A stretch of 27,181 nt of DNA from Nitrospinota bacterium. Its GTDB lineage: Bacteria > Nitrospinota > Nitrospinia > JACRGO01. Within the stretch, counting starts at the first letter, position 1; every line of letters starts with the position of its first letter. Under the pieces are notes generated by a model. It searched no databases and was not told the DNA's origin. It saw only the letters and a list, made by a program, of their open reading frames with translations. Location: NCBI GenBank assembly GCA_016212295.1, contig JACRGO010000148.1:1-27181 (forward strand). The letters are read 5' to 3'. Made by a program: the position numbers and the translations under genes. Below, in pieces: positions 8,199 through 25,357 of this stretch.

Positions 8199-8960
8199 AT
8201 GACCGAGCATTCGTCCGAGCACACTCATGGCTGGGAGACAAGCCCCTGGCCCTTGCCTCTTGCGGCAGGTATTCTTTTTTTATTGCCTCTGCCATTTTCC
8301 TTTCATTTTGTTTATAAAAATTCACTTATGGCCATGCTTTCGCTGGGGCTTGGTGTCCCGATGGTCATCATCTCAGTCGCGGGGTGGACGCGGGAGAGTC
8401 TTGAGGACAAATACGGATGGGCGTCCGGCTACATCGTCGGCGCAATGCCGTTTTTCATCATAGCCGAGGCGTTCATCTTCATCGCCTTTCTCGCCGCTTA
8501 CTGGGTCATTAAACTTTCCGCCGGCGTCTGGCCTCCTCCAGGGACCCCTGAATTTCCAGTCCTTATACCCATCATCATGACCATTATCCTGGTCTCGTCC
8601 AGCATCACAATCCATATAGGCGAAGGAAAGCTGGAAGAAGGCGATAAGGAGGGCTTTATCAAATGGCTGGGACTCACTATTCTCCTTGGGACCGTTTTTC
8701 TGTGTTTCACGGCCTTTGAATGGTCCCACTTCATTCATGAGGGATTTCTGATCGGGACCAACGCCAAGGGCACGGTTTTTTATTCCATCACCGGCTTCCA
8801 CGCCTCCCATGTCTTTGTCGGCCTGGCCATCTTTCTTTGCATCCTGCTCCCGGCCATTGCAGGGAAAGTCAGCAAGCCCTTTGTTCAGGCAGGGTCCATC
8901 TACTGGCATTTCGTGGATATAGTGTGGTTTTTCGTGGTCTCGCAAGTTTATTTTTGGTGA
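8199..8960 (+). CDS. haem-copper oxidase subunit III (COX3 family)
   Basis: A 253-residue membrane protein with about seven hydrophobic segments. COX3 hallmarks are SEAFIF-like AEAFIFIAFLAAYW (about residues 90-103), the TAFEW segment at about 173, ITGFHASHVFVGL (about 194-206) and the C-terminal YWHFVDIVWFFVVSQVYFW. Subunit III stabilises subunit I and its proton uptake. The start has an excellent SD (GGGAGGAGG, 6-7 bases upstream). It is first in the locus; subunit III before II and I is a less usual order. Confidence 0.92.
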   Translation: MTEHSSEHTHGWETSPWPLPLAAGILFLLPLPFSFHFVYKNSLMAMLSLGLGVPMVIISVAGWTRESLEDKYGWASGYIVGAMPFFIIAEAFIFIAFLAAYWVIKLSAGVWPPPGTPEFPVLIPIIMTIILVSSSITIHIGEGKLEEGDKEGFIKWLGLTILLGTVFLCFTAFEWSHFIHEGFLIGTNAKGTVFYSITGFHASHVFVGLAIFLCILLPAIAGKVSKPFVQAGSIYWHFVDIVWFFVVSQVYFW

Positions 8961-8968
8961 TAATTCAC

Positions 8969-9040
8969 GGGTACCAGGGGGCAGGAAAAGCGGCAAGGAG
9001 TTTCTCTGCTGTTTGTCCATATCCCTGACACCTGCGAACT
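8969..9040. repeat. intergenic repeat fragment (CCAGGGGGCAGG / CCCTGACACCTGC)
   Basis: The space between coxIII and the SCO gene holds a purine-rich stretch followed by ATCCCTGACACCTGC. That 15-mer recurs exactly at about 25064-25078, linking this fragment to the larger repeat at 24909-25110. Confidence 0.5.
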
Positions 9041-9069
9041 GTTACTATTTTTGGTAAGAGATGATCCAC

Positions 9070-9927
9070 ATGAAAAACTTATTCCTCACCTGGATCATGG
9101 CGGTTGTCCTTTGTTTTTATTCCGCTGTTTGCCACGCGGAGTATGGGCGCGTCCCGAAATCGGAGTTCGATCCAGAGACCATTAAAATCGATGAGGAAAA
9201 ATACCTCGGCTCTCCGGTTGAAAAGAATTATGTATTCATCAACGAAAAAGGCAGGGAATTCACCCTTGGAGACATGCTGGATAAGCCCCTTATACTGGTC
9301 CTGTCCTATTACGCCTGCGACGGGGTCTGTTCCGCTGTCAACGCCTCGCTGATGAACGCCTTGTCCGGCATTGGACTTAAACCCGGCCGGGACTACCGGG
9401 CGCTGACCGTTTCATTTGACAGAAATGACGGCCTGGAAAGTCTTGCCATGTTTAAAAAGCATCTCCAGATTCCAGAAAGACTTGGCGCGGCATGGGAGCT
9501 GGCCGTCGCTAAGAACTATAAAGACATGGAGAGTTTGACAAGGGGCCTGGGCTACAACTTTTTCTGGTCAACGCGGGACCGTATATTTTTCCATCCCAAT
9601 GCGCTGGTGTTTCTGTCGCCGGGCGGCAGGGTGGTCCGTTACCTCTACACGGCCGGCATGAGCAATAAAGACGTGGAGTTGTCCATTCTGGACGCATCCA
9701 GGGACCAGGCAGGCAAGTCCAATATAACCGACCTGGGGAGCGCCTTCTTGATCGCTTGTTACAGTTATAATTTCAAGGAAGGCAAGTATTCCTTGAACTA
9801 TCCTTTGTTCATCGGCGCCGGTTCCCTGTTGTCCGGGGTGGCGCTCCTCGGAATTTCCATGGTTGTCATGGCTAGACAGGGACGCAACCAAAAGAAAAAC
9901 AAAAAACAAATGGCAAATGACAAATAA
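9070..9927 (+). CDS. SCO1/SenC-type copper chaperone with C-terminal membrane anchor
   Basis: A 285-residue SCO-family thioredoxin fold. An N-terminal signal peptide ends at about CHA-E (residue 23). The copper site is present: Cys 83 and Cys 87 in YYACDGVCS, plus His 175 in FFHPNALVFL. A transmembrane helix lies at about residues 247-270, so the domain should sit in the periplasm and be tethered by its C-terminus. SCO proteins load copper into CuA of oxidase subunit II, which is encoded next. The start could be ATG 9061 or ATG 9070; the latter directly begins the signal peptide. The last codons (KKNKKQMANDK) are encoded by the left edge of an intergenic repeat, so the C-terminal tail may be a by-product of repeat insertion. 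Confidence 0.88.
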   Translation: MKNLFLTWIMAVVLCFYSAVCHAEYGRVPKSEFDPETIKIDEEKYLGSPVEKNYVFINEKGREFTLGDMLDKPLILVLSYYACDGVCSAVNASLMNALSGIGLKPGRDYRALTVSFDRNDGLESLAMFKKHLQIPERLGAAWELAVAKNYKDMESLTRGLGYNFFWSTRDRIFFHPNALVFLSPGGRVVRYLYTAGMSNKDVELSILDASRDQAGKSNITDLGSAFLIACYSYNFKEGKYSLNYPLFIGAGSLLSGVALLGISMVVMARQGRNQKKNKKQMANDK

Positions 9928-10042: not shown

Positions 10043-10130
10043 GCGAGGCGTGGCCGCAAGCAAAATAAAATTTCGATGTATTAAAGCGTTTGATGGTATT
10101 GTTACGTTCAAAAATCAGGAGGGCTCTTTC

Positions 10131-10844
10131 ATGAAAAAAATATTCATGGCCTTAACGGCCGCCTTCATGCTTCATACGGCTTCCGCCAAATCCGTTTTCG
10201 CCAACGAAGGGCGGAAGGCCGGGGCCATTGCCGACCCCGCCGAGGGCTGGAGCCGTCTATTTCACGAGGTGCTGGTGGACGTCACCATCATGGGGGTTAT
10301 TTTCGCCGCCATAACTATCTATTACATGCTGAAATACAAGAGGAAGAGTCCGGACCAGGTCGGAAGCTGCAAGAAGCTCAGCGCCGCGCAGATGTGGGGA
10401 TGGGCCTTGATCCCAGCTTTCGTTTTCATGGCGGATGATTTTTTCCTGGCGGCAAACACTTGGTCTCTATGGAACATATACCGCAAACCGCCGGCCGGGT
10501 CCTATGAGATAGAAGTGCGAGCGGAAATGTGGAGTTGGAATTTCATATATCCAGGTGGAGCGGCGGCAGTGAACGAATTGCGGGTCCCGGCCGGGAAACC
10601 CATAGCATTGAGAATGACCAGCAGCGACGTTGTTCACAGCCTTTATCTTTCTGACTTCAAGGTCAAGGAGGACTGCATGCCGGGCCGCGTGACTTATTAC
10701 TGGTTTTACCCAAAGGTCCCCGGGGAACACGTCCTGACCTGCACGGAGTATTGCGGCGCCATGCATTCCGGCATGTACGGCAAGGTCATAGTGATGCCGC
10801 AGGAGGAATTCGACAACTGGCTTAAAAAGGAGACAAAGGCATGA
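10131..10844 (+). CDS. cytochrome c oxidase subunit II (CuA type)
   Basis: A 237-residue subunit II with a signal peptide (about 1-25), two transmembrane helices (about 46-66 and 88-108) and a periplasmic cupredoxin domain. All CuA ligands are visible: His 169 (VVHS), Cys 204, Cys 208, His 212 and Met 215 in CTEYCGAMHSGM. The aromatic MWSW segment that takes electrons from cytochrome c is at about 133-136. No C-terminal cytochrome c domain exists, so this is not caa3. The start is the ATG at 10131, which has CAGGAGGG about 8 bases upstream; the frame continues to a GTG at 10050 without support. The stop overlaps the subunit I start (ATGA). Confidence 0.93.
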   Translation: MKKIFMALTAAFMLHTASAKSVFANEGRKAGAIADPAEGWSRLFHEVLVDVTIMGVIFAAITIYYMLKYKRKSPDQVGSCKKLSAAQMWGWALIPAFVFMADDFFLAANTWSLWNIYRKPPAGSYEIEVRAEMWSWNFIYPGGAAAVNELRVPAGKPIALRMTSSDVVHSLYLSDFKVKEDCMPGRVTYYWFYPKVPGEHVLTCTEYCGAMHSGMYGKVIVMPQEEFDNWLKKETKA

Positions 10845-12445
10845 GCGCGCATGTGAAATCTGGGTTCAAGGAATGGATTTTCACCACGGACCATAAGAGG
10901 ATAGGCATTCTCTACCTCGTGGGCTCAATCACCGCCTTTTGTCTATCCGGAATCATGGCCGTGCTGATCCGGCTGGAATTGTGGTCCCTTGGGCCGACCA
11001 TCACGGATGATCCCACAACCTACAACGTATGGCTGTATATGCACGGCGCGGTCATGATCCTGGGTTTCCAGATCCCGGCCCTGACAGGATGGTTCGCGAA
11101 TTACCTGGCGCCGCTTCAGATAGGGGCCAAGGACGTGGCCTTCCCAAGGCTCAACGCCTTCAGTCTGTGGCTGTTCTGGGCAGGGGTCGTGCTGGCCCTT
11201 CTGACCTTCGTTGTGCCGGACCCGCCGGACGTGATGTGGACCGGGTATCCGCCATATTCAGTCGTGACGTCCGGAAACACCGCCCTTTACTCCTTTACCG
11301 TCCTTGTCATGGGGTTCTCTTCCATCGCGGGCGGGATCAACCTGATCGCAACCATTATTTTCATGCGGGCGCCTGGGATGGCGTGGGGCAAGCTCAACAT
11401 GTTCATCTGGACCGTCCTGGCAGCCTTCACTATCCAGTTGATCTTTGTCCCGGTCCTTGGCTCGGCTGTGACAATGGTGCTCTTTGATAAATACCTGGGC
11501 GCCACCTTTTTCAATCCGGGAATGGGAGGAGACGTCCTCATCTACCAGAATCTATTTTGGTTTTACTCTCACCCGGCGGTCTATGTCATTCTCCTCCCCG
11601 GCATAGGCATGATTTTTGAGATAGTGGCCACCTTTTCCCGCAACCGCATATTCAATTTCAAGGTAGCGGTCTATGGCGGCGTGGGGGTCCTGGTCCTCAT
11701 CACCGGAGAGGTATGGGTGCACCACCTTTACACCTCCGGGCTTGCCGACTGGCTCAGGGTCTTTCAGATGGTCACCACGCTTATGATCAGCGTCCCGGTG
11801 GGGATTCTCATGATCAGCCTGGTGGGGACCTTGCGCGGAGGGGCCATTGATTACAAAACTCCCATGCTCTACGGAGTGGGGTTCATCTTCGTCTTTCTGG
11901 TTGGCGGCCTGACCGGCATTCCGCTAGCCATGGCCTCGCTGGACCTGGCCGTGCATGACACCCATTTCGTGGTGGCGCACTTCCACTTCGTAATGGCGGT
12001 GTCCATGACCTTCGCCATCATGGGCGGGACCTATTACCTCTTCCCCAAGATGAGCGGCAGGATGTACAGTGAGACCTTGGGCAGGACGGGGTTCTGGCTC
12101 TTCCTGATAGGGGTGTTCGTCACCTTCGGGACCATGTTCTTCGTGGGACTCGATGGAATGCCGAGACGCTATTACGATTACCAGATGTTCCCGCAACTGG
12201 AGAACCTTCATAAGGTGCAGACCATAGGGACCATGATCATCGGGCTTGCCGTGATCACCATTTTGATTTCGTGGATACACGGCTTGGTCGCTGGAGAGAA
12301 GGCCCCGAGCAATCCCTGGGGTTCGAGATCGCTGGAATGGGACACTACCTCTCCTCCCGGGCCCGGCAACTTCGGCGGACGGTCCATCGTCGTGCCGGAC
12401 GATTGGGACCCTTACTGTTACGATAAGCCTGGAAGAACTTTATGA
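10841..12445 (+). CDS. haem-copper oxidase subunit I, A family with YS motif
   Basis: A 534-residue, about twelve-helix oxidase subunit I. Ligands read by eye: low-spin haem His 68 and His 382, high-spin haem His 380, and CuB His 244, His 294 and His 295, with the cross-linking Tyr 248 (HPAVY). The Glu of HPEVY is replaced by Ala 246 while Tyr 242-Ser 243 precede the histidine, the signature of A2-type oxidases. The D-channel entrance Asp 98 and Asn 105 (KDVAFPRLN) are kept. In the K-channel segment the usual PTGxK reads PVGIL (Val 320, Leu 323), so the canonical Thr and Lys appear absent. The retained Tyr favours O2 over NO reduction. Coupled by ATGA overlaps to coxII upstream and ctaA downstream. 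Confidence 0.93.
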   Translation: MSAHVKSGFKEWIFTTDHKRIGILYLVGSITAFCLSGIMAVLIRLELWSLGPTITDDPTTYNVWLYMHGAVMILGFQIPALTGWFANYLAPLQIGAKDVAFPRLNAFSLWLFWAGVVLALLTFVVPDPPDVMWTGYPPYSVVTSGNTALYSFTVLVMGFSSIAGGINLIATIIFMRAPGMAWGKLNMFIWTVLAAFTIQLIFVPVLGSAVTMVLFDKYLGATFFNPGMGGDVLIYQNLFWFYSHPAVYVILLPGIGMIFEIVATFSRNRIFNFKVAVYGGVGVLVLITGEVWVHHLYTSGLADWLRVFQMVTTLMISVPVGILMISLVGTLRGGAIDYKTPMLYGVGFIFVFLVGGLTGIPLAMASLDLAVHDTHFVVAHFHFVMAVSMTFAIMGGTYYLFPKMSGRMYSETLGRTGFWLFLIGVFVTFGTMFFVGLDGMPRRYYDYQMFPQLENLHKVQTIGTMIIGLAVITILISWIHGLVAGEKAPSNPWGSRSLEWDTTSPPGPGNFGGRSIVVPDDWDPYCYDKPGRTL

Positions 12446-13368
12446 TGGGAAAGACTCTCGGCGCCGGGAAAATCTGCTATGTCCTTGGCCCGGCCGTGGT
12501 GTTCACCTATCTGCTCATGGTGATGGGAAACTTCGTCACCTCCACTGATTCCGGCCTGGCTTGTCCGGATTGGCCGCTTTGCCACGGGACAGTCACCCCG
12601 CCGCTGGAACTCAGCATCTGGTTCGAGTGGGGACACCGCCTGCTTGGGGCCTTTGCCGGGATACTGATTGTCCTTTCAACCGTCTTTGTGTGGCGGCATC
12701 ACAAGGGGGTCCCTCGATATCTGATGGGGGCCGTGACCGCTCTTCTGGTCTTCGGGGTCCTCATGGGAGGGGTGATAGTCATAACCGAGGCCCCGCACCT
12801 TGACAGCTTCGCGCGGGTGGCCATTGTCTCCTCCCATCTCCTCATATCCACCCTGGTCCTCATCTGCCTGATCTTCACCTTCCGTTACGTGGCGGTCCAG
12901 CGGGTCGTGATGGACAAGGCATATTACCCGCTCCTGTTCAGCGCGGTTTATCTAATGGTGGTCCTGGGGATACTGGTCCGGTATTCCGGCTCGTCCCTTG
13001 CCTGTCCTGATTTCCCGCTCTGCAACGGAGAGTTGATTCCCTCCTTTTCCGATTACGCGGTGGCCCTTCATTTTTCCCACAGGGTCTTTGCCGTGATCAT
13101 CATTCTGCTGAACATGGCCATACTTTACAGGGCGGTTAGGGAGGGCGAGGGAGTTATAGGATATATAGTGACCTTTTTCCTCGTGCTTCTACAGGCTTCC
13201 TTCGGAGTGTTGATCGTCTCCACCGGCATGTTTCTCCCCGTCATAGTCCTTCACGGCGCCACCGGCTTCCTGCTTCTGGCCTGGCTGGCCTATCAGTCAA
13301 TGCCTTATTTTTTTCAATACGCGCATAAAGCCAATGGCACATATCAAGAAACCGCGGGAGCATCTTAA
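12442..13368 (+). CDS. ctaA: haem A synthase (COX15/CtaA family)
   Basis: A 308-residue, about eight-helix membrane protein that oxidises the C8 methyl of haem O to make haem A for the adjacent oxidase. The two halves repeat, as in the family: TDSGLACPDWPLCHG (about 34-48) and GSSLACPDFPLCNG (about 180-193). Each is followed by a histidine helix (EWGHR at about 61-65, HFSHR at about 207-211). His residues near APHL and LHGATG provide the other ligand positions. Both halves keep a pair of cysteines. The start overlaps the subunit I stop by 4 bases, with GGAAGA upstream. A haem O synthase gene (ctaB) is not in the window. Confidence 0.92.
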   Translation: MMGKTLGAGKICYVLGPAVVFTYLLMVMGNFVTSTDSGLACPDWPLCHGTVTPPLELSIWFEWGHRLLGAFAGILIVLSTVFVWRHHKGVPRYLMGAVTALLVFGVLMGGVIVITEAPHLDSFARVAIVSSHLLISTLVLICLIFTFRYVAVQRVVMDKAYYPLLFSAVYLMVVLGILVRYSGSSLACPDFPLCNGELIPSFSDYAVALHFSHRVFAVIIILLNMAILYRAVREGEGVIGYIVTFFLVLLQASFGVLIVSTGMFLPVIVLHGATGFLLLAWLAYQSMPYFFQYAHKANGTYQETAGAS

Positions 13369-14522: not shown

Positions 14523-14552
14523 CTACAAGAGTTACAACTATTTTTCGTGAGC

Positions 14553-14660
14553 ATGAACCTATCCCTTGAACAAAAAAAACGCCTCTTCGCATGGATAATG
14601 GGGGGGGTGACGGCCCTTCTCTTCGCCGCCGCCTGGGCAATGATCGCCTGGAGGTGGTGA
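14553..14660 (+). CDS. 35-residue single-helix membrane protein
   Basis: A short frame of 35 codons: a charged N-terminus (MNLSLEQKKR), then one hydrophobic helix (about residues 11-33: GGVTALLFAAAWAMIAW) ending RW-stop. Its TGA shares a base with the DUF420 start (TGATG, 14658-14662), which is strong positional evidence for a real coupled gene. It has GC-rich codons like the oxidase genes and unlike the cassette to its left. Small one-helix proteins accompany many haem-copper oxidases as accessory or subunit IV-like proteins; that role here is inference. The SD is weak. Confidence 0.65.
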   Translation: MNLSLEQKKRLFAWIMGGVTALLFAAAWAMIAWRW

Positions 14661-15064
14661 TGGATTTCCGTTGGCTGATATTCACCGGAAGCCAGACCAT
14701 AATCGGCGTCAGCGGCCTCTTGATCGTCACGGGCTTGGTCCTTATCAAGCAGGGCAGGAAGGAACTCCACAAAAAGGCCATGCTCTCGGCCACTTTTTTC
14801 GCCCTGATATTCGTTGCGCTCTACCTCATCCGGTCGGCGATGTTCCCCCACTCCAAGTACCAGGGAGGCCACAGGTCGCTGTACCTGTTCATAGTCGCCT
14901 CCCATACCCTTCTGGCCATTGTCAACGGCCCGATGGCGGTTGTCACCATATACCGCGCCCTGAAGGAGGATTTCGGCCGCCATAAAAAAATCGCGCCATA
15001 CACGGCCGGGGTATGGATTTATGTCGCCGCCACAGGCTGGATCATTTTCGCGTTCACGAAATAG
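14660..15064 (+). CDS. DUF420 membrane protein
   Basis: A 134-residue protein with four hydrophobic segments, matching DUF420 (YozB-type): the helix after MDFRWLIFTGSQTI, a KEL-HKKAM histidine turn (about residue 37), RSAMFPHSKYQGG (about 60-72), a helix with ASHTLLAIVNGP and a C-terminal GVWIYVAATGWIIF helix. DUF420 genes often lie beside cytochrome oxidase and SCO genes and are thought to help oxidase assembly, with conserved histidines that could bind haem or copper. The start is ATG 14660, overlapping the small upstream gene by one base. Together the pair looks like the displaced distal end of the oxidase operon, separated from ctaA by the accessory cassette. Confidence 0.82.
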   Translation: MDFRWLIFTGSQTIIGVSGLLIVTGLVLIKQGRKELHKKAMLSATFFALIFVALYLIRSAMFPHSKYQGGHRSLYLFIVASHTLLAIVNGPMAVVTIYRALKEDFGRHKKIAPYTAGVWIYVAATGWIIFAFTK

Positions 15065-15523: not shown

Positions 15524-16399
15524 TCACCCCTTTGAAATCAGGGCAGCCAGATTTTCCGCGATTTTCATGAATGCCTGGGCCGGGGCCGAATCCGGAGCGG
15601 CTGAAACAACCGGCTTGCCGGAATCGGAACCGGACATGACGTTAGGGTCAAGCGGCACCCTGCCTAAAAAGGGAAGCCCGAATTCCCCGGCCACCTTCTC
15701 CCCGCCTCCTTTTTTAAAGACGTCTATTTCCCCGTTGCAATGAGGGCAGACAAGGGAACTCATGTTCTCAACCACCCCGATATTTTTTATATTGCTCTCC
15801 CTGGCGAAATGGATCATCTTCCTGGCGTCCAGAAGGGCCACCTCCTGAGGGGTGGTCACCACCACGGCGGCTTCCACCTTGCCCATGAATTCGATGATGG
15901 TGATCTGCTCGTTGCCCGTGCCTGGGGGCAGGTCCACGAGAAAAAAATCAAGTTCTCCCCAACTTATGTTTCCCAGGAGTTCTATGATGAAATCGTATTT
16001 GACCGCGTCCCGCCATATAATGGGCATGTCCGGGTCCTCGATTAAAAATCCCAGTGACGCCACCCTGACCCCGGAATCCGTGATATGCGGTCCGATGCCG
16101 TCATCAACCCCCCGAAGCCTCACGCCTTCGATTCCCAGCATCTTGGGGATATTGGGGCCATGGATGTCGGCGTCCGCGAGTCCCACTTTGTAGCCCAGCC
16201 GCGCAAGGGCGAGGGCGAGGTTCGTGGTGACAGTGCTCTTCCCTACTCCGCCCTTATTGCTTCCCACGAGCACCTTGTGCTTGATTTTGGCCATCCTGTC
16301 CCCCACCCTCCAGCGGTTATGCTCTGTTTTATCAAGGGCGCAGGACTCCATTTTTTCGCACATATCGCAAGTGACCGGCAACCGGCATTTTTCAGACAT
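15524..16399 (-). CDS. Mrp/NBP35-type Fe-S cluster carrier P-loop ATPase
   Basis: A 291-residue ApbC/Mrp/NBP35-family protein that carries and transfers Fe-S clusters in the cytoplasm. It has a deviant Walker A, NKGGVGKST (about residues 48-56), DADIHGPNIPKMLG switch I, a DLPPGTGNEQ Walker B-like segment and the LVCPHC pair of cluster-binding cysteines. An extra N-terminal cysteine motif, CRLPVTCDMCEKMESC, is a potential second cluster site, as in NBP35-like members. The start is ATG 16399, with GGAGAAGG just upstream; the frame extends to 16450 without SD. Its position at the end of the molybdoenzyme cluster suggests cluster supply to NxrA/NxrB or the ferredoxin, which is inference. Confidence 0.9.
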   Translation of the reverse strand: MSEKCRLPVTCDMCEKMESCALDKTEHNRWRVGDRMAKIKHKVLVGSNKGGVGKSTVTTNLALALARLGYKVGLADADIHGPNIPKMLGIEGVRLRGVDDGIGPHITDSGVRVASLGFLIEDPDMPIIWRDAVKYDFIIELLGNISWGELDFFLVDLPPGTGNEQITIIEFMGKVEAAVVVTTPQEVALLDARKMIHFARESNIKNIGVVENMSSLVCPHCNGEIDVFKKGGGEKVAGEFGLPFLGRVPLDPNVMSGSDSGKPVVSAAPDSAPAQAFMKIAENLAALISKG

Positions 16400-16458
16400 A
16401 CCTTCTCCTGTTTTAAAATGGTGATAGTTAATAGCTCGGCTTAGACGCAACCAAATTG

Positions 16459-16508
16459 AAGTGACGAGTAACGAGTATCTTTATTCCTCTACTTGTCACT
16501 CGTTACTT
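16459..16508. repeat. short inverted repeat (GTGACGAGTAACGAGT type)
   Basis: The arms at 16459-16476 and 16491-16508 match as reverse complements at about 15 of 18 positions. The right arm covers the stop codon of the minus-strand TorD-like gene (16503-16505), so the element may have altered its last codons. Confidence 0.65.
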
Positions 16509-17180
16509 CCCGGAACAAAGCGATTTGTCCCCTCTCCCCAGAACTATGTCATGTTCGCGCTCAATGAACCACGCGAGGGCACGGGCGAGGAATTTAAAGT
16601 ATCCGCTGCCTGTGGCCTCGCGCACCCCTTCCGCGAATACGCAGCCGGATGGTCCAAGGTATTTCAGCAAGAACATTTTTCCCGCGGCCGCGCATATCGC
16701 CTGTTTTTCCGCTTCTCTCTCCTTCATGGCCAGGAATTCCTTGAAAGCCAACACGTGCATGAACTCCAATTCCACTCCAAAGTGGTCCGGCCTTATCTTG
16801 GCCGCCTCGAACCCGAACGCCTTGTAGCAGCCTGCTATGTCGGCCATGTCGTGGGTCTGGGCCATGAAAGCCGGCTTTTTCTCGTCAACTATTATTTCAG
16901 TCTGGTTAAGCGTCACCCTGATATTCCGGGAATGCGTCCCGAAGAGCCGTTCGTATTCAGTCAGGAGACCGTCTATTCCCATTTCCTTCAGGCCACTTAT
17001 TCCATCGTCGATTTCCTCATAAATGGAAGCGTTTTTATTTTCCTGGACCTGCCTTGCCGCGCCTTTAAGGTTCTCAACGAATTCAGGATCGGTAAAGGTA
17101 TTAAAAACCGTCTTATCAGGATACAAAAACCCCTTTGCAAGAAAATCATATATGATGCTTCTGGCAAGGGTTTTTTCCAT
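16503..17180 (-). CDS. TorD/DmsD-type molybdoenzyme chaperone (second copy)
   Basis: A 225-residue all-alpha protein of the TorD/NarJ superfamily. It has the typical start (LARSIIYDFLAKGFLYPD), then LTEYERLFGTHS at about residues 78-90 and a segment with DHFGVELEFMHVLAFKE at about 133-148. A later cluster reads KYLGPSG-F. Such proteins bind the Tat signal of a molybdoenzyme catalytic subunit and assist cofactor loading. It diverges clearly from the 249-residue copy at 18052-18801, so the two are not a recent duplicate. No SD is visible; TTAGCG repeats lie directly upstream of the start. It lies between the ferredoxin and the Mrp gene on the same strand. Confidence 0.8.
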   Translation of the reverse strand: MEKTLARSIIYDFLAKGFLYPDKTVFNTFTDPEFVENLKGAARQVQENKNASIYEEIDDGISGLKEMGIDGLLTEYERLFGTHSRNIRVTLNQTEIIVDEKKPAFMAQTHDMADIAGCYKAFGFEAAKIRPDHFGVELEFMHVLAFKEFLAMKEREAEKQAICAAAGKMFLLKYLGPSGCVFAEGVREATGSGYFKFLARALAWFIEREHDIVLGRGDKSLCSGK

Positions 17181-17187
17181 TGTATTT

Positions 17188-17222
17188 ATTTAGCGGTTAG
17201 CGATTAGGGGTTAGCGGGTAGG
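17188..17222. repeat. TTAGCG direct repeats
   Basis: TTAGCG occurs at 17190, 17197 and 17211 with degenerate TTAG and GTAGGG copies between. They fill the 44-base gap between the ferredoxin stop and the downstream chaperone start. Confidence 0.6.
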
Positions 17223-17224
17223 GG

Positions 17225-17833
17225 CTATGATTTATAAGAGCCCTTTTCCACTTTAATCGCCGGCGGATTATTTATCGCGATGCAGGCGCTCTCACAAAGG
17301 CCGCATCCGGCGCATTTCTCCTCAATGACCACCGGCTTTGAATCATCCACTATAATAGCCGTTCCCCGCAAGGGACACTTCAAGGAGCAAAGGAGGCACA
17401 CCCCGGAGGCGCCGCTCCACGCGAAGCACAACTCCTTTTTTATGCGGGCCGTGCCCATACGGACCTCGCTTCTGTCCTTGACCGGCAATAGGGCCTTTGG
17501 CGCGCACGCCTTTATGCACGGGAGATCCTCGCATAGACGGCAAGGGCCTTCGGACGGAATAATGACGGGCGTCCCCTTAATCCGCCTGCCCCACTCGCCT
17601 CCCGCTTTTTTGATGCTCCCATGCGGACAAGCCTTCAGGCAGTCGTCGCATTTCGTGCACAGGGAAAGAAAAGCCTCCTCATCAACAGCGCCGGGGGGTC
17701 TGATGGGGACGCCTGCGCGCCGTTCCCTTTCCGCTAGTTCCCCCATGCCTTCCGAGACCTTGGCGGCCAGGAAGTTAAGGCCATGCAGGAAAAATCCGCG
17801 TCTCTCTATTTTTTTTTCCTTTGGCATACGCAT
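17225..17833 (-). CDS. four-cluster ferredoxin, NapF/NapG (MauM)-like
   Basis: About 202 residues with four cysteine clusters: CTKCDDCLKACP, CRLCEDLPCIKACAP, a split LCFAW...GVCLLCSLKCP, and CAGCGLCESACIA. This arrangement is that of the NapF/NapG/MauM ferredoxin-type proteins associated with periplasmic nitrate reductases. The N-terminus has ERRGFFLHGL, a twin-arginine-like motif, but the following stretch (LNFLAAKVSEGM) is weakly hydrophobic, so whether it is exported or stays cytoplasmic like NapF is unclear. Possible starts are ATG 17833, ATG 17827 or TTG 17839; none has an SD, and the upstream sequence is a palindromic repeat. It may pass electrons to or from the NXR-type enzyme or help its Fe-S assembly. 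Confidence 0.8.
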   Translation of the reverse strand: MRMPKEKKIERRGFFLHGLNFLAAKVSEGMGELAERERRAGVPIRPPGAVDEEAFLSLCTKCDDCLKACPHGSIKKAGGEWGRRIKGTPVIIPSEGPCRLCEDLPCIKACAPKALLPVKDRSEVRMGTARIKKELCFAWSGASGVCLLCSLKCPLRGTAIIVDDSKPVVIEEKCAGCGLCESACIAINNPPAIKVEKGSYKS

Positions 17834-17850
17834 GAACAAAAATCTAATTT

Positions 17851-17936
17851 AACCGCAAAGCCGCAAAGGACGCAAAGGAAATTATTTTTCTCTTTCAAAA
17901 ATATTATTACTTTGCGCTCTTTGCGTCTTTGCGGTG
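17851..17936. repeat. intergenic inverted repeat (ACCGCAAAGCCGCAAAGG type)
   Basis: The left arm at about 17852-17878 and right arm at about 17910-17935 are imperfect reverse complements built from GCAAAG units around an AT-rich loop. It lies immediately upstream of the ferredoxin start codons and has the same general design as the palindrome at 8085-8155. Confidence 0.75.
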
Positions 17937-17954
17937 AATTTTATAATTCCTTTA

Positions 17955-17998
17955 CAAAAACAAAAAAAGGGCGATGCAAGCAAAAAGCATCGCCCTTT
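17955..17998 (-). terminator. rho-independent terminator after TorD-like gene
   Basis: Read on the minus strand, a perfect 12-bp stem AAAGGGCGATGC / GCATCGCCCTTT (17998-17987 and 17977-17966) with a 9-base loop is followed by TTTTGTTTTTG. It lies about 55 bases after the chaperone stop at 18052 and should separate nxr transcription from the ferredoxin gene. Confidence 0.85.
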
Positions 17999-18051
17999 CA
18001 GAAAAAAACTGATTTGTGTAAGGCAGACGGATTAAACCCTATGAAAGATCC

Positions 18052-18801
18052 TTAAATTTCCAACGGGGCTTCAGCCACATCACTTGGCGGCGCTATCTCC
18101 GATGGGCAGGTTATGGCTTCCTCCGGCTCCTTCGGTAATTCCTTCACGCCTTCAACCTCAACCACTATCCCGTAGGATTTAAGCTCCTCATCAATGGCTT
18201 TAGCGGTGAGCAGGGCGAGTTTCTTATAAAAATCAAAAGTGGTCCGCTCCTCAAGGTTCCTGCAGAAAACGCCGGCCCACGGCCCGATATGCTCCGCGAG
18301 AAATTTCTTCCTGGCCGTGACGCAGATATCAAGATTTTCATCCATCCCCTGGTCAATGGCATACGCCTCCTTCAGGGCAAGCGAGCTTAAAAATTCCATT
18401 TCAACCGCTATATGGTCCGGCATTACCGCGGCCTTATCAGAAAGGGTAAAACCAAACGCCTTGTAAAACCCGCTGATGTCGGCAAGGATATTCACCTTGT
18501 CAAACCTGAGCCCTCCATACCCGTTCTCATAGGGGGTGCAGATCATCCTCGTCAGGAAAAGCTCCGAATACTCGAACTTCAGCGGCTCGACGTCGGCGCT
18601 GTTAATGGCCCCTTGAAATTCAGAATACTCCTTCTTGATATCATAGGGCAGGAGGTCCAGGACCGCCTCTATGTCACCGGCAAGAAAGTCCAGGGATTCC
18701 ATCTTTTCCCTGTCGAGGTACTCAAAGGCGGTTGAGAGGAACCTGTAAAGGTCCGCCTTTGCCAGGGCAATATCCTTTGCCGCGGTTTCTGTCTTTGTCA
18801 T
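18052..18801 (-). CDS. TorD-type chaperone for the NXR-like molybdoenzyme
   Basis: A 249-residue all-alpha TorD/NarJ-superfamily protein: LAKADLYRFLSTAFEYLDRE at the N-terminus, FEYSELFLTRMICTPYENGYGG (about 76-97), ISGFYKAFGF (about 109-118), PDHIAVEMEFLSSLALKE (about 127-144) and a later HIGPWAGVF. The PYE-DHIAVE-HxxPW signature is typical. A proline/glutamate-rich tail ends the protein. Chaperones of this type bind the Tat leader of NarG/NxrA-like subunits until the Mo cofactor is inserted; the gene's place right after nxrABC makes NxrA the likely client. GAGGAT lies about 8 bases upstream of the ATG. It has its own terminators on both sides, suggesting lower or separate expression from nxrABC. 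Confidence 0.88.
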   Translation of the reverse strand: MTKTETAAKDIALAKADLYRFLSTAFEYLDREKMESLDFLAGDIEAVLDLLPYDIKKEYSEFQGAINSADVEPLKFEYSELFLTRMICTPYENGYGGLRFDKVNILADISGFYKAFGFTLSDKAAVMPDHIAVEMEFLSSLALKEAYAIDQGMDENLDICVTARKKFLAEHIGPWAGVFCRNLEERTTFDFYKKLALLTAKAIDEELKSYGIVVEVEGVKELPKEPEEAITCPSEIAPPSDVAEAPLEI

Positions 18802-18814
18802 ATTTCAATCCTCA

Positions 18815-18832
18815 TCCGGCCCGAAGGCCGGA
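18815..18832 (-). promoter_or_regulatory. UUCG-loop hairpin beside the chaperone ribosome binding site
   Basis: On the minus strand TCCGGCC-TTCG-GGCCGGA forms a 7-bp stem with a stable UUCG tetraloop. Its 3' end touches the GAGGAT SD of the TorD-type gene. It may protect the 5' end of a processed mRNA or modulate translation; this is inference. Confidence 0.5.
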
Positions 18833-18841
18833 GCCTCTCAT

Positions 18842-18884
18842 AAAAAGGGGCGGGGTCGACTTGCAAAGCAAATCAGACCCCGCC
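18842..18884 (-). terminator. rho-independent terminator after nxrC
   Basis: On the minus strand GGCGGGGTC (18884-18876) pairs with GACCCCGCC (18857-18849), with an inner partial stem around GCTTTGC, followed by CCCTTTTT. It starts 16 bases after the nxrC stop, so it probably attenuates read-through from abundant nxrABC mRNA into the chaperone gene. Confidence 0.85.
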
Positions 18885-18899
18885 TTATCCTCTCGTGTA

Positions 18900-19766
18900 T
18901 TATTGAATGTTCAGCTTAACCCAGCCGCCATCGGAAAAATTCTTCCTGGCGCCTCTTTCACCCTTGCTGCCGTCCCATACGGTGAAAGCCACCGGAACCG
19001 TGGACCCGGCCTTTAAAACCGCGTCAGACGCGTCGCCGGAATCAAGGGGCCTTACAATAACGACCTTCCAGTAGCGGTAATCAGAAACGCCCTTGCCCTT
19101 GGCGTTTTGTGTCGCCTGGGCCGTAAGCGTCCCGAACCCTTCCGCGTTCATCTCCTCAACCGAGGTGTTCTTAAGTGGATTGGAAAGGTTGTTGCCTGCC
19201 GCAAGCCCTGCGATGTACTTTTGCGCGTTAGGCGAAAAAGAAGTCACAGGGTAGTTTGCCTTTTGCGGAACCGCCTTTGTCTCAGGATACGTGTCCACAT
19301 TGTAGTTAGGGTAGGCTTGCTCCACGTCCTGATAACCCTTTGCAAGGTCCTTTTCCCAGGCGGCTTTCCATTGCAGTATCTGGACAGGGCCGTTCGGCTC
19401 GCCCATCATGAAATTCGGCTCAGTGCCGGGTTTCACCGCGAACTGAACCGCGCATGCATCGGCGAATTTATCGGACATATTAACCGCGTCATTCACTGTG
19501 CTGTCGTACCACTCCACCTTAATAGCTATGTCCTTGTCATTATGAACGGACGAGACCTTGATGGAAGGGACCGACGCCGCCTTGATTCCAGGCGTGGCGA
19601 CATTCTGGGGCGCCATTGGAATTATAGTTGCGCCCGCGCCGTCCCATGCGGGATCCATCGGGTCCGTTAAAATATCCTTCACTGCCCCTGATGTTATTAC
19701 AGGCTCAGCGGCAAAGGAGATCGAGCCCATTGCCAAAAGAAAAGCCAAAACAAGCAATTTTTTCAT
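18900..19766 (-). CDS. nxrC: NXR-type gamma subunit, haem b-binding (ethylbenzene dehydrogenase-related)
   Basis: A 288-residue secreted protein with a signal peptide (about residues 1-19, cleavage near SFA-A). It belongs to the EbdC/NxrC/DMSO-reductase type II gamma family: DPMDPAWDGA at about 35-44, FMMGEPNGPVQILQWKA at about 119-135 and a C-terminal WDGSKGERGARKNFSDGGW. By position, Met 121 and Lys 275 are the best candidates for the axial haem b ligands known in EbdC (Met and Lys). It would carry electrons from the NxrB clusters to a periplasmic acceptor such as cytochrome c. No C-terminal membrane helix is seen. GGGAGGAAG lies about 5 bases before the start. It is separated from nxrB by a strong hairpin at 19809-19852. 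Confidence 0.88.
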   Translation of the reverse strand: MKKLLVLAFLLAMGSISFAAEPVITSGAVKDILTDPMDPAWDGAGATIIPMAPQNVATPGIKAASVPSIKVSSVHNDKDIAIKVEWYDSTVNDAVNMSDKFADACAVQFAVKPGTEPNFMMGEPNGPVQILQWKAAWEKDLAKGYQDVEQAYPNYNVDTYPETKAVPQKANYPVTSFSPNAQKYIAGLAAGNNLSNPLKNTSVEEMNAEGFGTLTAQATQNAKGKGVSDYRYWKVVIVRPLDSGDASDAVLKAGSTVPVAFTVWDGSKGERGARKNFSDGGWVKLNIQ

Positions 19767-19808
19767 ATATACTTCCTCCCTTAATATTAGGCTGCAATTC
19801 GAGATATT

Positions 19809-19852
19809 GACCGGCCCCCGCCATGCCCAAGGGCATTGGCGGGAGGCCGGTC
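19809..19852 (-). promoter_or_regulatory. strong nxrB-nxrC intercistronic hairpin without U-tract
   Basis: GACCGGCC (19809-19816) pairs with GGCCGGTC (19845-19852), and the inner CCCGCC-TGCCC pairs with GGGCATTGGCGGG, leaving one bulged base and a tiny loop. No run of U follows on the minus strand. It is better explained as an mRNA-stability or processing element than as a full terminator. Confidence 0.75.
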
Positions 19853-19868
19853 ATTCATAAAGCCTCTG

Positions 19869-20999
19869 TTACGAGTTGTTGTACAGAAACGCGCCGGTCT
19901 TCTGGCTGAATTCCCTGACAAAGGAAGGTTCCCTGGTCGGTACCCTGGCCGTCTCGGCCCCCTTGTCGTCAATGCCCACGGCGAGATCGCCCTCAGCCTT
20001 GAACTTGCTCGTCATCGGCTCAGCGCAACCAAAGATGGTAAGCGCGGCAAGGAGCTCCTTGTCGTTAGGGGCGTTCCTGTATGCCTTCACCGCCTCCTCG
20101 GCCCCAGGACCGAACATCTGCAACAGATACTTCGGATCCACGTGAACGGGAGGAATGTAATAGACATTAGGCTGCGTCCCGAATTGCGGATAGAGAGGCA
20201 GGGCTATCTTCCTTATATGGATCAGATAATCAAACGGGTTGTCCTTGTTGGCCTGCGCCGGGTCAACGCTCTTGAAGCCGTTCAATCTGATCTTTCCTAT
20301 GCAATTGGTCGTGCATTGCGACTGCTGGCCGGTGGCCTCCATCTTCGGATAGCAGGAGATGCACTTTTCGCTGACCCTCGTGGTGTTGTTATAGAAGGGT
20401 TTCTTGTAAGGGCATGCCTTCACGCATTCCCTGTATCCCCTGCACCTCTTCTGATCGATCAGCACAATGCCGTCCTCGGCCCTCTTGTAAATCGCCTTTC
20501 TAGGGCACGCCGCGAGGCAGCCGGGGTATGCGCAATGATTGCATATCCTGGCGAGATAGAAGCCCCATTTCTTGTGGACCCCTTTTAAATGCTCGCCCCT
20601 TTCCACGCTGGCGCTGCATTCGTCCTCAGCGAGATTTGGGCTTTCGTAGTCCCTTTCGTTGGGCAGGTAACCAAGAACGCTCTCCTGGTCAGGGGCGGCC
20701 TCGAACACGGTCTTGCCCGCGTACTTGCCGCCTTCCCATTTTTGTGGTCCAAGGAGGCCAAGGGTTTGCACGTCCCATCCCAGTGGGTAGAAGCCGTAGG
20801 GCTTGGACTCCACGTTGTTCCAGAATACATACTCCTGGCCCTTGCCTGACGTCCAGGTGGTCTTGCAGGCCATGGTGCAGGTCTGGCAGGCTATGCATTT
20901 ATTCGGATCGAAGATAAAGGCAACCTGTTTTTGGGGTTTGCTCTCGGGATAGGGGTACTCCATGTCCCTCCCGATTTGCCAATTTTTTACTTTAGGCAT
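19869..20999 (-). CDS. nxrB: NXR-type beta subunit, four Fe-S clusters
   Basis: A 376-residue NarH/NxrB-family subunit. Cysteine groups in order: Cys 35-38-41-45 (CIACQTCTMAC), Cys 153-156-161-165 (CNHCAYPGCLAAC), Cys 186-192-196 (CRGYRECVKAC) and Cys 213-216-229-233. In the third group Tyr 189 stands where a fourth cysteine would be, as Trp does in NarH, consistent with a [3Fe-4S] cluster. No signal peptide is present, so export with Tat-bearing NxrA is expected. The start ATG 20999 (MPKVKNW) matches the usual NxrB beginning; an ATG at 21008 is the alternative. It is shorter than the roughly 430-residue Nitrospira NxrB I recall. It lies 45 bases after the nxrA stop. Confidence 0.9.
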   Translation of the reverse strand: MPKVKNWQIGRDMEYPYPESKPQKQVAFIFDPNKCIACQTCTMACKTTWTSGKGQEYVFWNNVESKPYGFYPLGWDVQTLGLLGPQKWEGGKYAGKTVFEAAPDQESVLGYLPNERDYESPNLAEDECSASVERGEHLKGVHKKWGFYLARICNHCAYPGCLAACPRKAIYKRAEDGIVLIDQKRCRGYRECVKACPYKKPFYNNTTRVSEKCISCYPKMEATGQQSQCTTNCIGKIRLNGFKSVDPAQANKDNPFDYLIHIRKIALPLYPQFGTQPNVYYIPPVHVDPKYLLQMFGPGAEEAVKAYRNAPNDKELLAALTIFGCAEPMTSKFKAEGDLAVGIDDKGAETARVPTREPSFVREFSQKTGAFLYNNS

Positions 21000-21044
21000 C
21001 GTTATCATTCCTTATTTAAAAGTTAATATGAATAAAGGCGCAGC

Positions 21045-24000
21045 CTATGATTTCTTGGACGCAGCCTCGGCCGTGACAAAACCCGCGCTCAGATACTTCT
21101 TCATTGCATCGTTCTCATAGGTCGGCCTGTAGCCCAGCGCCGCAGCCCTCCAGACCTTGCCGTCAGGATCTCCGGACTCGGCCTTTGTGAACTTCACAAA
21201 GGACTCCTTTGGGGCGCCGTTCGCCGCATGGACGTCCGCCTCGAAGCCCTTGAGTATGGCCTGTCCCATGTTCATCTTGTGGGTCATGGTGTCGGTCATA
21301 AGGGTCGGGCTCAGCCATGCCCTTGTGGTGCTCTGATGGCTCCCGAACCTGAACATGGCCTGATAGCTTGTCCTTGGGTTCTTGGCAAGCCCGTCGGCCC
21401 TTGTCTTCGCGCCTTCAATGGAGCCGTAGGTCGCGGTGTAGGCGCTGAAATACATCCTTGTCACGCCTCGCGGGCAACCCCAGAAGTACCTGGCCCTTGC
21501 CATGCAACGCGCAAGCTCATACTCCTTGGTCCCTGGCTTCCATCCGCGATAGGGCCTGTCGCCCGGATCACCGTCGATCCAGACATAGTCACCCTCATCG
21601 ATCCCCAATTCCCTGGCGTCGAGCGGGTTGATGTCAACGTAGCCTTCGCCAACGGACGGCTTCCGTTTGTCATGCCTGTACATATCGCCGAAGGGTCCGT
21701 ACCAGGCCGTCATCAGGTCAGTGTCGATGGGGGTGGTATGGGCGGAATGCCTGTACTTCGGCGTGTTGAATATGAAGCGATAACCTTCCTTGTGCAAGGG
21801 ATGCTGGGTTGCCATCAGCTCCTTGGTGGTCTTTACAACGTGCCTGCCCTGGCGGTTCTCGGCAATCGTGAGGCTGTTACCGTCCCTCTCAAGGCCGTAC
21901 TTCTCCGGCGAATCAGGATTGCAGGCGCGGCTCTTGCCGACAATGACGTTAGGCTCATGGAACGTGGCGTCGATAGGCTCCCTGTAGTTGGTGAGGTTCT
22001 CACCGCACTCCAGCCACCTGGGCTCGTCCTTGTAGAATTCGAGCCTTCCGGTCTTAGTGGCATAAGGCTTGCCTTCCTCGCCGTTCTCCCATCCGCTGAC
22101 CCTTGGATAGGTCCTGTTCATCATAAGGGTCGGGATGCCCTCCTTGGCCTTGGCCGCCACTTCATCAACCTTATATCCCCTGGTTGCGTTGCTGGCGTTG
22201 AAGATCCTCTGGAGATAAGGCTCTGATTTGCCGTCAACAAGAATGAACTTCCAGAAATCCGCGAATCTCTGGTCCCCGGTCAGGCTGGTCATCGCCTTTC
22301 CAATGCCGGCGTAGACCTCCATGTCGGATTTTGAATCAAAGACCCTCTTCATGGGGGTTATCGGGAGACAATACAGGAACGAGTTGGTGCAGGAGGCGGA
22401 CATGTCGGTGAATTTCGCCTCAAGCCAACTGTCAACCGCCCATACGATGTCACTGTATTCGCAGGAGCCGGTCCAGTTCCATTCATTGTACATGAGAAGT
22501 TCCCACCTCGGCAGGGTGTTGATTACAAGGTCAAAGTGTCCCTTACAGTTGCCGACCGAGGAGTTGCTGTTCGACTGCCACATCACCTTGGTGGGCGTGG
22601 GCATGTGGGTGCTGTCCGTGTAAAGCTTGTTTCCCACGCGGAGCGGTCTGTCCCCGTAATTATAGAAGTGGGATGATTCGAACTTGAGGTAGGGCTCGAC
22701 CCTGGCCATCTTGGTGGCGTCGAGCTCCGCGTCAAAGGGGTTCTCATAGTTGAACTGCCCCTGGCCCGCGAAGAGGGAGACCCTGTAATTGCCGACAAAG
22801 TTCCCTATGCATGCCCCGCCGACATGGCCTATATTGTCCGTTAAGGCGCAGAGAAGGATAAGGGCCTTGTCCTTGAGGTGCATGTTGAAATGGTGGTTGT
22901 TGCCGGCGCCGGTGGCGATGATGGTCTTGGCCTTGTTCTGGGCCACCTCCCGCGCGAGGCTTACTATGGCGTCCTTTGGCGCCCATGTGATGGCCGAGGT
23001 ATTCTCAGGCGTGAACTCATCCAGGTATTCCTTCTGGAGTTGGAATACGGTGGTGACCTTTACCTTGCTCCCGTCAGCCAAGGTCACCTCGAAATCACCT
23101 TCCAGGGCCGGGTCTATGCCCTTGTCCTTGAATTTTACGCCGCACTCATCCCTTGTCACCACTACCGGGGCCTTGGTCTTCAAGTCCCACATAACCGCGT
23201 CACCCCATGAGTTCCTGAGGGATTGCTTGACTAAATGCTTGGAGTGAGCGGCAAAGGGGAGCGGCCATTTGGCGTCGTCCGGAAGGACCTCTATGCAATT
23301 TGAGAGCGGGGCCAGTTGGTAATCCTTGATTATGTCGGACGCCTTCAGACCCTTCCAATTGTCCGTCCTGATAAGGAGGGGCATGTCGGTGTTGGCCTTC
23401 AGGTATTGAGGATCAAAAAGCTTTTCCTTAATAATCACATGGCACATTCCAAGGCCAAGGGCTGCGTCCGTGCCGGCCCGGATGATAATGACCTCATCCG
23501 CCTTGTTCGCCGACGCATGGTAATCAATGCTTACGTCAACGATCTTCGTGCCCTTGAGCCTTGCCTCGGATATCCAGTGCGCGCAAGGCATCTTGGTGGC
23601 TATCATGTTAGTGCCAAGCATGATCACGAGCTTGGCATGCTCAAAGTTCGCGATGTCATAATCAAACGCCTGATGGCCGGTGACCATCGGGGTCCCGGGC
23701 GCGAGGTCCGTATGCCAGGTGTAGCTGTCAAGGCCCTTCGCGGCCTGCGCGTCCTTGGCGTCCACCTTTCTTATGTACTGGTCTAACAGGGCCATCATCT
23801 GGCCTTGCCTGATCTGGCCGAATACCCTGGTGATGCCGAGAAGCGCCATTCCGCCCCTGAACTTCATGGTTTTTACGCCGGCGCCCTTCATTGCCTTGAT
23901 CATCTCAGGGTCATAATCCTGCTTCTTAAGCAGTTCAGCCCCCTTATCGCCGGAATATGTCGTGGATATATTCAGCATCGCCCTTGTGGCTATTGAAAAT

Positions 24001-24545
24001 GCCTCGTCCCATGGGACCGGTATAAATGGTTCCAAGCCCCGTTGGAAATATTTCTTGTCCGGGAGCCCGGTAGCGGTCCTTGGAAAACCGTCATTCACCC
24101 ATTCCATGAAACCCTTCCTGACCAGCGGGCTCTTGGGCCTTCTGTCGGAATATATTCTCCTGGCCATGACCAGTCCTTTATTGCAGCAACGTGGGTCCCA
24201 TCTGTGGGACGCCTTGTTTCCCAATTGGTCCGTGGCCTTGCCGAAGCCGTAAGACGGCGAAATCCTGACCACAACGTCGTTCTTCACGTGGGCCTTTAAC
24301 AGACAGTTATGCGTGTCGTTCGGTACGCAGAGGAAAACAAAATCGCTGTCCACTTTCCACATATTCCGGTACACATTCTCCCAGTCCCGGCTCGGATAGG
24401 CGGCGAGCGGATTGTCAACCGATACCGGTGCCAGATACGTAGAGGCGGCAAAGGCGTTCTTCCCCATCACGAGCATTCCCATGGTGGCGGAAAGCTTCAG
24501 AAAACTCCGTCTCTCTATTTTACTTTTGCTAAAATCTTTCTCCAT
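21045..24545 (-). CDS. nxrA: NXR/NarG-type periplasmic molybdoenzyme catalytic subunit
   Basis: 1166 residues, Mo-bisMGD family, DMSO reductase type II. A Tat signal is clear (ERRSFLKLSATMGMLVMG, residues 11-28), so the enzyme faces the periplasm. The N-terminal Fe-S motif is CVPNDTHNC: Cys 73, Asp 77 and Cys 81 take the positions of NarG His-Cys-Cys, with Cys 121 completing the set. Asp 280 in HTDLAPGTP aligns with the NarG molybdenum ligand. The sequence is of the NxrA/archaeal pNarG type (for example KMPCAHWISEARLKGTK at about 318-334). It would oxidise nitrite to nitrate, or in the reverse direction reduce nitrate; context with an aerobic oxidase favours the former. GGGGGAGG lies about 5 bases before ATG. 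First gene of nxrABC. Confidence 0.9.
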   Translation of the reverse strand: MEKDFSKSKIERRSFLKLSATMGMLVMGKNAFAASTYLAPVSVDNPLAAYPSRDWENVYRNMWKVDSDFVFLCVPNDTHNCLLKAHVKNDVVVRISPSYGFGKATDQLGNKASHRWDPRCCNKGLVMARRIYSDRRPKSPLVRKGFMEWVNDGFPRTATGLPDKKYFQRGLEPFIPVPWDEAFSIATRAMLNISTTYSGDKGAELLKKQDYDPEMIKAMKGAGVKTMKFRGGMALLGITRVFGQIRQGQMMALLDQYIRKVDAKDAQAAKGLDSYTWHTDLAPGTPMVTGHQAFDYDIANFEHAKLVIMLGTNMIATKMPCAHWISEARLKGTKIVDVSIDYHASANKADEVIIIRAGTDAALGLGMCHVIIKEKLFDPQYLKANTDMPLLIRTDNWKGLKASDIIKDYQLAPLSNCIEVLPDDAKWPLPFAAHSKHLVKQSLRNSWGDAVMWDLKTKAPVVVTRDECGVKFKDKGIDPALEGDFEVTLADGSKVKVTTVFQLQKEYLDEFTPENTSAITWAPKDAIVSLAREVAQNKAKTIIATGAGNNHHFNMHLKDKALILLCALTDNIGHVGGACIGNFVGNYRVSLFAGQGQFNYENPFDAELDATKMARVEPYLKFESSHFYNYGDRPLRVGNKLYTDSTHMPTPTKVMWQSNSNSSVGNCKGHFDLVINTLPRWELLMYNEWNWTGSCEYSDIVWAVDSWLEAKFTDMSASCTNSFLYCLPITPMKRVFDSKSDMEVYAGIGKAMTSLTGDQRFADFWKFILVDGKSEPYLQRIFNASNATRGYKVDEVAAKAKEGIPTLMMNRTYPRVSGWENGEEGKPYATKTGRLEFYKDEPRWLECGENLTNYREPIDATFHEPNVIVGKSRACNPDSPEKYGLERDGNSLTIAENRQGRHVVKTTKELMATQHPLHKEGYRFIFNTPKYRHSAHTTPIDTDLMTAWYGPFGDMYRHDKRKPSVGEGYVDINPLDARELGIDEGDYVWIDGDPGDRPYRGWKPGTKEYELARCMARARYFWGCPRGVTRMYFSAYTATYGSIEGAKTRADGLAKNPRTSYQAMFRFGSHQSTTRAWLSPTLMTDTMTHKMNMGQAILKGFEADVHAANGAPKESFVKFTKAESGDPDGKVWRAAALGYRPTYENDAMKKYLSAGFVTAEAASKKS

Positions 24546-25173: not shown

Positions 25174-25357
25174 ACACACCCCGGCCTTCGGCCACCCCTC
25201 TCAAGAGGGGAATTTTTAAAAGGAAAAAATTTTAAATCGCCGGTGGTATGATTTCCAGCGGTTTGCCGCGACGCCTTATTCCTTAACCCCATATTGAAAG
25301 GGCGCCACCACCTATAAATTCCCCTCTTTAGAGGGGTGGCCGAAGGCCGGGGTGTGT
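25174..25357. repeat. MITE-like element with 42-bp terminal inverted repeats
   Basis: The arms 25174-25215 and 25316-25357 are reverse complements at 41 of 42 positions. Each arm is itself two small palindromes, GGCCTTCGGCC and CCCCTCT-AGAGGGG. The 100-base centre has no gene. No target-site duplication is evident. It occupies the gap upstream of the aminotransferase gene. Confidence 0.85.

Follow-up and report, generated by a model that had tools for sequence, protein, structure and literature searches.

A likely Nitrotoga-type nitrite oxidoreductase operon and its linked assembly genes in an uncultured bacterium, probably of the Nitrospinota

Main finding

The 27,181-nucleotide contig analysed here in full (JACRGO010000148.1, hereafter the window) is likely to carry a Nitrotoga-type periplasmic nitrite oxidoreductase (NXR) operon equipped with its own assembly genes, in an uncultured and probably Nitrospinota bacterium. 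NXR type serves to infer which organisms oxidise nitrite. The NXR family itself is an established one. What seems to be new is its occurrence in this host, its linkage to assembly genes and its coexistence with a second NXR; the searchable literature apparently reports neither the assembly module nor the dual NXR.

Organization of the locus

Seven genes, in the order nxrA-nxrB-nxrC-torD1-ferredoxin-torD2-Mrp, run along the minus strand from 24545 to 15524, confirming the coordinates and single orientation given by the initial annotation. A second set, on the plus strand (8199-15064) and convergent on the nxr cluster, comprises coxC, a SCO-like gene, coxB, coxA, ctaA, an unknown gene and a DUF420 gene.

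21045..24545, minus strand: nxrA, Mo-bisMGD catalytic subunit, 1166 aa, Tat signal ERRSFLK; 857 bits to Kuenenia NxrA (7b04)
19869..21008, minus strand: nxrB, iron-sulfur subunit, 379 aa, without signal
18900..19766, minus strand: nxrC, secreted haem b subunit, EB_dh fold; PF09459, alignments to 7b04_C and 2ivf_C
18052..18801, minus strand: torD1, Mo-enzyme chaperone; PF02613, TIGR03482 below cut-off
17940..18051, minus strand: intergenic region with a 12-bp terminator-like hairpin and U7 after torD1; fold -29.5 kcal/mol, z -2.8
17225..17839, minus strand: ferredoxin, NapG/NapF-like; 16 Cys (four [4Fe-4S]), N-terminal RR-x-F-F
16503..17180, minus strand: torD2, second, divergent TorD-type chaperone; PF02613
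15524..16450, minus strand: Mrp/Nbp35-type Fe-S carrier ATPase; PF10609 (299 bits), N-terminal C-x5-C-x2-C-x5-C
14591..15064, plus strand: DUF420 membrane protein; PF04238
13747-14256, between ctaA and the DUF420 gene: 169-aa protein, no Pfam match
12442..13368, plus strand: ctaA, haem A synthase; PF02628
10841..12445, plus strand: coxA, A-type oxidase subunit I; YSHPAVY site, TIGR02891 at 552 bits, below cut-off
10050..10844, plus strand: coxB, oxidase subunit II; CuA ligands, without fused cytochrome c, TIGR02866 above cut-off
9061..9927, plus strand: SCO1/SenC-like oxidase assembly protein; PF02630 at 21.7 bits, just below the 22.8 cut-off
8199..8960, plus strand: coxC, oxidase subunit III; PF00510

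The terminator-like hairpin separates torD1 from the ferredoxin gene, so the seven genes may form two transcription units, nxrABC-torD1 and ferredoxin-torD2-Mrp. The Mrp start codon is probably further in, at about 16396 (MSEKC...), directly before the conserved Cys motif. The window contains no cytochrome c gene and no detectable RNA family, and the earlier statement that it encodes no membrane-anchor subunit holds. At 8082-8158, where the congener-like flank meets the cox genes (the synteny break described below), lies a near-perfect 38-nt palindrome.

Sequence features of the NXR subunits

The closest solved structure of each subunit is its counterpart in the Kuenenia NXR 7b04, with 401 bits for NxrB and an E-value of 5e-28 for NxrC, beside the 857 bits of NxrA. 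The cofactor motifs noted at first reading are indeed present: NxrA keeps the Mo-site Asp279 and the FS0 motif C-x3-D-x3-C plus C120, NxrB a NarH-like cysteine pattern, and NxrC the haem ligands Met121 and Lys275. NxrC carries the secretion signal that had been proposed for it and lacks a C-terminal membrane helix, NxrB has no signal, and NxrA has its Tat motif. The initial annotation had reserved this motif for NxrA only, a claim that goes too far: an N-terminal RR-x-F-F is also present in the ferredoxin and in its orthologues from Gallionella. The hydrophobic core there is weak, and export of the ferredoxin is uncertain. A C-terminal transmembrane helix is found in NxrC of several relatives outside the Nitrotoga-type clade, and Nitrotoga NxrC is soluble.

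Cluster IV of NxrB has Cys instead of Asp, CIACQTCTMACKTTW. The window NxrB thus retains, in its N-terminal cluster, the Cys published for Nitrotoga and described as a difference from Nitrospira (PMC6050957); this position is occupied by His in the Nitrospinia copies examined, which also carry insertions. At the Mo site, the window reads Y-4x-D-11x-QA, departing from the Nitrotoga pattern Y-4x-D-11x-QM. Because the last position also varies among Gallionellaceae members (T, C, N), QM marks the genus Nitrotoga and not the whole clade; having QA, the enzyme is therefore filed in the Nitrotoga-type clade and not as a Nitrotoga NXR proper.

The EB_dh fold of NxrC, together with weak family-level matches to ebdA and pcrA, would also fit a different member of the type II DMSO reductase family, acting on a substrate such as chlorate, perchlorate, selenate or a hydrocarbon. 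Yet against the score to Kuenenia NxrA, the window NxrA reaches only 181 bits with perchlorate reductase (PcrA), 132 with ethylbenzene dehydrogenase (EbdA) and 24 with NapA models, and it sits deep within the NXR/pNAR superclade, outside the Nap, perchlorate reductase and hydrocarbon dehydrogenase groups. Another substrate is thus highly improbable.

Ancestry of the enzyme

A scan of named genomes with the NxrA-led alignment gave the highest identities to Gallionella, Ferrovaceae and betaproteobacterial MAGs (64-66%), followed by Candidatus Nitrotoga (62%), with all others at or below 57%; NxrB is 63% identical to that of Nitrotoga. In trees built without named Nitrospira, Nitrolancea or Hydrogenobacter sequences and with a Kuenenia NxrA incomplete at its C-terminus, the window NxrA was the first branch of the Nitrotoga/Gallionellaceae group (support 100/100), and the NxrB tree was congruent in this grouping (100/99). 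Constraining NxrA to join the Nitrospina-type copies of its own phylum, Kuenenia and NC10 cost 204 log units and was rejected (p-AU 1e-67), as were its union with the second NxrA of the same genome (p 2e-57) and its nesting in the Gallionellaceae subgroup (p 0.0009).

The cluster had initially been described as built like the NXR of Nitrospira, Nitrospina and anammox bacteria. This is correct for its architecture, cofactors, Tat/Sec export and TorD, when compared with Kuenenia 7b04 and with PMC3578206, but not for its ancestry: the constrained grouping failed, and the Nitrospinia copies share just 36-38% identity with the window NxrA. By its sequence, then, the enzyme is a Nitrotoga-type periplasmic NXR and not, by ancestry, one of the Nitrospira/Nitrospina/anammox type. 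Besides subunit identities, it has in common with Candidatus Nitrotoga the nxrABC-torD order, the NxrB cluster Cys, a Tat-bearing NxrA and a Sec-exported NxrC without transmembrane helix. In contrast, Nitrotoga belongs to another phylum, has Met after the Mo-site Gln where the window has Ala, uses a cbb3 oxidase where the window has an aa3 oxidase, and has nxr loci without the ferredoxin and the second TorD; the window branch is basal to the Nitrotoga-type clade.

NAR/NXR-like proteins from Omnitrophota, Methanoperedens and others form the sister groups in the NxrA tree. NXR is reversible, the Nitrotoga clade neighbours putative nitrate reductases (PMC6050957), and a published survey considered nitrate reduction the more likely function of NXR/NAR-like enzymes outside the class Nitrospinia (PMC10839748). 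Such observations would suit an enzyme acting mainly as a periplasmic, cytochrome-linked nitrate reductase of the Hydrogenobacter type, in which electrons from quinol would reach nitrate by way of complex III and cytochrome c. Because of these putative nitrate reductases neighbouring the clade, we only infer the direction of catalysis. Nitrate reduction as the main activity nevertheless appears unlikely, since the physiologically tested members of the sister group (Nitrotoga) oxidise nitrite, the window lacks a quinol-oxidising anchor and has an aa3 oxidase with assembly genes adjacent, and the genome encodes an alternative-complex-III-like operon, ATP-citrate lyase and a bd-like oxidase/cytochrome c set like that of nitrite oxidisers (see below). 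Nitrite oxidation is hence the reading retained here.

A candidate assembly module

TorD1 and TorD2 each match the chaperone family of type II DMSO reductases, and the best matches of the ferredoxin are NapG/NapF; these NCBIfam scores lie below the curated cut-offs. The ATPase domain of Mrp has CFD1 (6g2g) as its best structure match, and its N-terminal four-Cys motif is one that we take to resemble Nbp35; the complete C-x5-C-x2-C-x5-C occurs in every orthologous Mrp examined. The protein thus shares with Nbp35/Mrp (ApbC) carriers the PF10609 domain, a CFD1-like ATPase and an N-terminal four-Cys motif with C-x2-C-x5-C, but differs from them by its dedicated linkage to NXR genes.

Best matches for NxrA, NxrB, TorD1, the ferredoxin and Mrp are all from Gallionellales. 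TorD1 is 49-55% identical to its Nitrotoga/Gallionella orthologues, NxrC 51% to Nitrotoga NxrC, and Mrp 60-66% to orthologues of Nitrotoga-type nxr loci, while ferredoxin orthologues were found beside nxr in a Gallionella MAG (57-58%) and beside torD/Mrp in a Gallionellaceae MAG (55-56%). The Gallionella MAG STA_52 (G078:C9) has nxrABC-torD-ferredoxin-Mrp in identical order, at 45-68% identity; this cluster differs from the window by its betaproteobacterial host, the lack of torD2 and the lack of any adjacent cox genes seen. In the Gallionellaceae MAG (G080:C53) the order is torD-ferredoxin-Mrp, and in the two betaproteobacterial/Nitrosomonadales loci with sufficient sequence it is nxrABC-torD-Mrp; Mrp follows in a Nitrosomonadales locus whose NxrA is near-identical to that of Nitrotoga. 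A further nxr copy of STA_52 (L029) consists of nxrABC only, with 10 kb downstream covered. Outside the Nitrotoga-type clade, where NXR/NAR loci were counted only if at least 8 kb downstream of nxrA was available (n=44), TorD was found in 42 loci and Mrp in none, and one distant ferredoxin match lay elsewhere in its locus. No second TorD occurred in the syntenic Nitrotoga/Gallionella loci examined, making torD2 an addition of the window.

The torD-ferredoxin-Mrp synteny common to Gallionellaceae bears out the earlier suggestion of a dedicated maturation module, and from protein family and gene linkage we infer that the ferredoxin and Mrp serve Fe-S assembly of NXR. The accessible part of the literature retrieved by a search on NXR maturation does not describe this module. 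The ferredoxin and the Nbp35-like Mrp are concrete candidate factors for making active NXR in a laboratory host.

Host genome and origin of the contig

The host assembly totals 3.74 Mb in 237 contigs and is 90.5% complete; no 16S rRNA gene was found in it. An NXR-like NxrA occurs in 23 of the 77 genomes of the phylum, mostly 36-42% identical to the window NxrA, and the legend of Fig. 7 in D'Angelo et al. 2023 treats the divergent nxrA of GCA_016212295 (Nitrospinota) as a relative of Nitrotoga nxrA (PMC10203281). Based on this NxrA distribution, the published note and the presence of ATP-citrate lyase, the host probably belongs to the Nitrospinota. Primer sites of N. gracilis had no close match in the loci examined.

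Over its left flank (243-7976), the window runs collinear with a congener, G002, at identities of 65-75%. The congener continues with a Mpl-like ligase gene (named by eye), so that the cox-nxr block begins at the synteny break. Beyond nxrA, a MITE-like 45-nt inverted repeat with arms 96% complementary (25174-25357) has a copy on C235, the contig of the second nxr (L108 14579-14959), and was absent from the seven loci of other genomes checked. The collinear flank and the repeats shared with the second-nxr contig indicate that the contig is native. The one congener compared has neither this nxr type nor the adjacent cox genes, coxA among them, so the nxr/cox block was, on sequence comparison, probably acquired horizontally.

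The same absence from the congener, and the Gallionellales best matches of five of the encoded proteins, could be read as the mark of a binning error or a chimera, with the contig stemming from a Gallionellaceae-like nitrite oxidiser. However, a single 27 kb contig links the cluster to nearly 8 kb collinear with the congener, the inverted repeat also occurs on the contig that bears the genome's own second nxr, and NxrA falls outside the Gallionellales group. Synteny and common repeats thus largely refute misbinning, which we regard as very improbable, and horizontal acquisition by the host is retained as the probable origin of the block.

A second NXR and respiratory genes elsewhere in the genome

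The second nxr set, on C235 (L108, L109), has nxrA and nxrB 8 kb apart, separated by a repeat-bearing insert, and is followed downstream by ModE- and molybdate/tungstate-transport-like genes (transport assigned by eye). Its NxrA is 42% identical to that of the window, forms a separate deep branch and is shared with the congener. Besides the two NXRs, no narG-type or type II enzyme was found in the genome. Two aa3-type oxidases are encoded (C105, C93), one of them adjoining the nxr cluster, and at a threshold of 1e-60 its coxA matched nothing in the phylum's 76 other genomes.

Contig C186 encodes a pentahaem cytochrome, a 999-aa molybdopterin/ferredoxin protein, an NrfD-like protein and cytochromes c, a gene order that we take to be that of alternative complex III. 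A bd-like oxidase, a diheme and a monoheme cytochrome c and an alternative NxrC, in which two haem-c sites are joined to an EB_dh domain, lie on C44:298-5339 (L179), a contig assigned by binning. This set resembles the NXR-linked components of Nitrospina, Nitrospira and Kuenenia, and such components are listed by Luecker et al. as conserved with NXR in these organisms (PMC3578206). ATP-citrate lyase (ACL) is present, and NirB was found at 885 bits. Reverse-Dsr sulfur oxidation was considered as the main lifestyle and discarded: no DsrA scored above cut-off, and the two weak matches were NirB and a sulfite-reductase-C-like protein.

Proposed working and significance

Beyond the presence of genes and ligands, the following scheme is modelled on Nitrotoga and Kuenenia. 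NxrA would fold in the cytoplasm, where TorD1 (and TorD2) may guard cofactor insertion and the Tat signal, and the Nbp35-like Mrp and the four-cluster ferredoxin would provide NxrAB with its five Fe-S clusters or repair them. Exported by Tat, NxrAB would join the Sec-exported NxrC outside and convert nitrite to nitrate in the periplasm. Electrons are predicted to pass from Mo through FS0, the NxrB clusters and haem b of NxrC to a soluble cytochrome c and the neighbouring aa3 oxidase, with some driven uphill via alternative complex III and an assumed complex I towards CO2 fixation by an ATP-citrate-lyase reductive TCA cycle.

Since a Nitrotoga-type NXR with assembly genes is combined with a second, different nitrite oxidase, the host may be an unrecognised nitrifier. 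The initial idea of nitrite oxidation in a lineage not recognised as nitrifying is accordingly plausible on gene content, which makes this bacterium a good candidate for a nitrite oxidiser overlooked so far and questions the view that Nitrospinota other than the marine nitrite oxidisers do not nitrify. More tentatively, we might be dealing with an unrecognised autotrophic nitrite-oxidising lineage of Nitrospinota whose two periplasmic NXRs differ in phylogenetic origin, the deep-branching enzyme being its own and the Nitrotoga-type enzyme having come in with the aa3 oxidase. Each NXR would be suited to different nitrite or oxygen levels, and the ferredoxin/Nbp35-type module would be required for the Nitrotoga-type NXR; this fuller account is possible, though somewhat less likely than not. 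Found together with its assembly genes, an oxidase and a second NXR in one genome, a Nitrotoga-type NXR would show nitrite oxidation spreading between phyla as a transferable package.

Additional NXR copies in other genomes

Three nxrA genes (L029, L030, L117) occur in the Gallionella-labelled MAG STA_52 (G078); in a published pangenome, nxrAB was reported within the family in Nitrotoga only (PMC10734462). Two separate NXR-type enzymes are encoded next to each other in the NC10 bacterium CSP1-5 (L049); their identities to the window enzyme are 39% and 55%.
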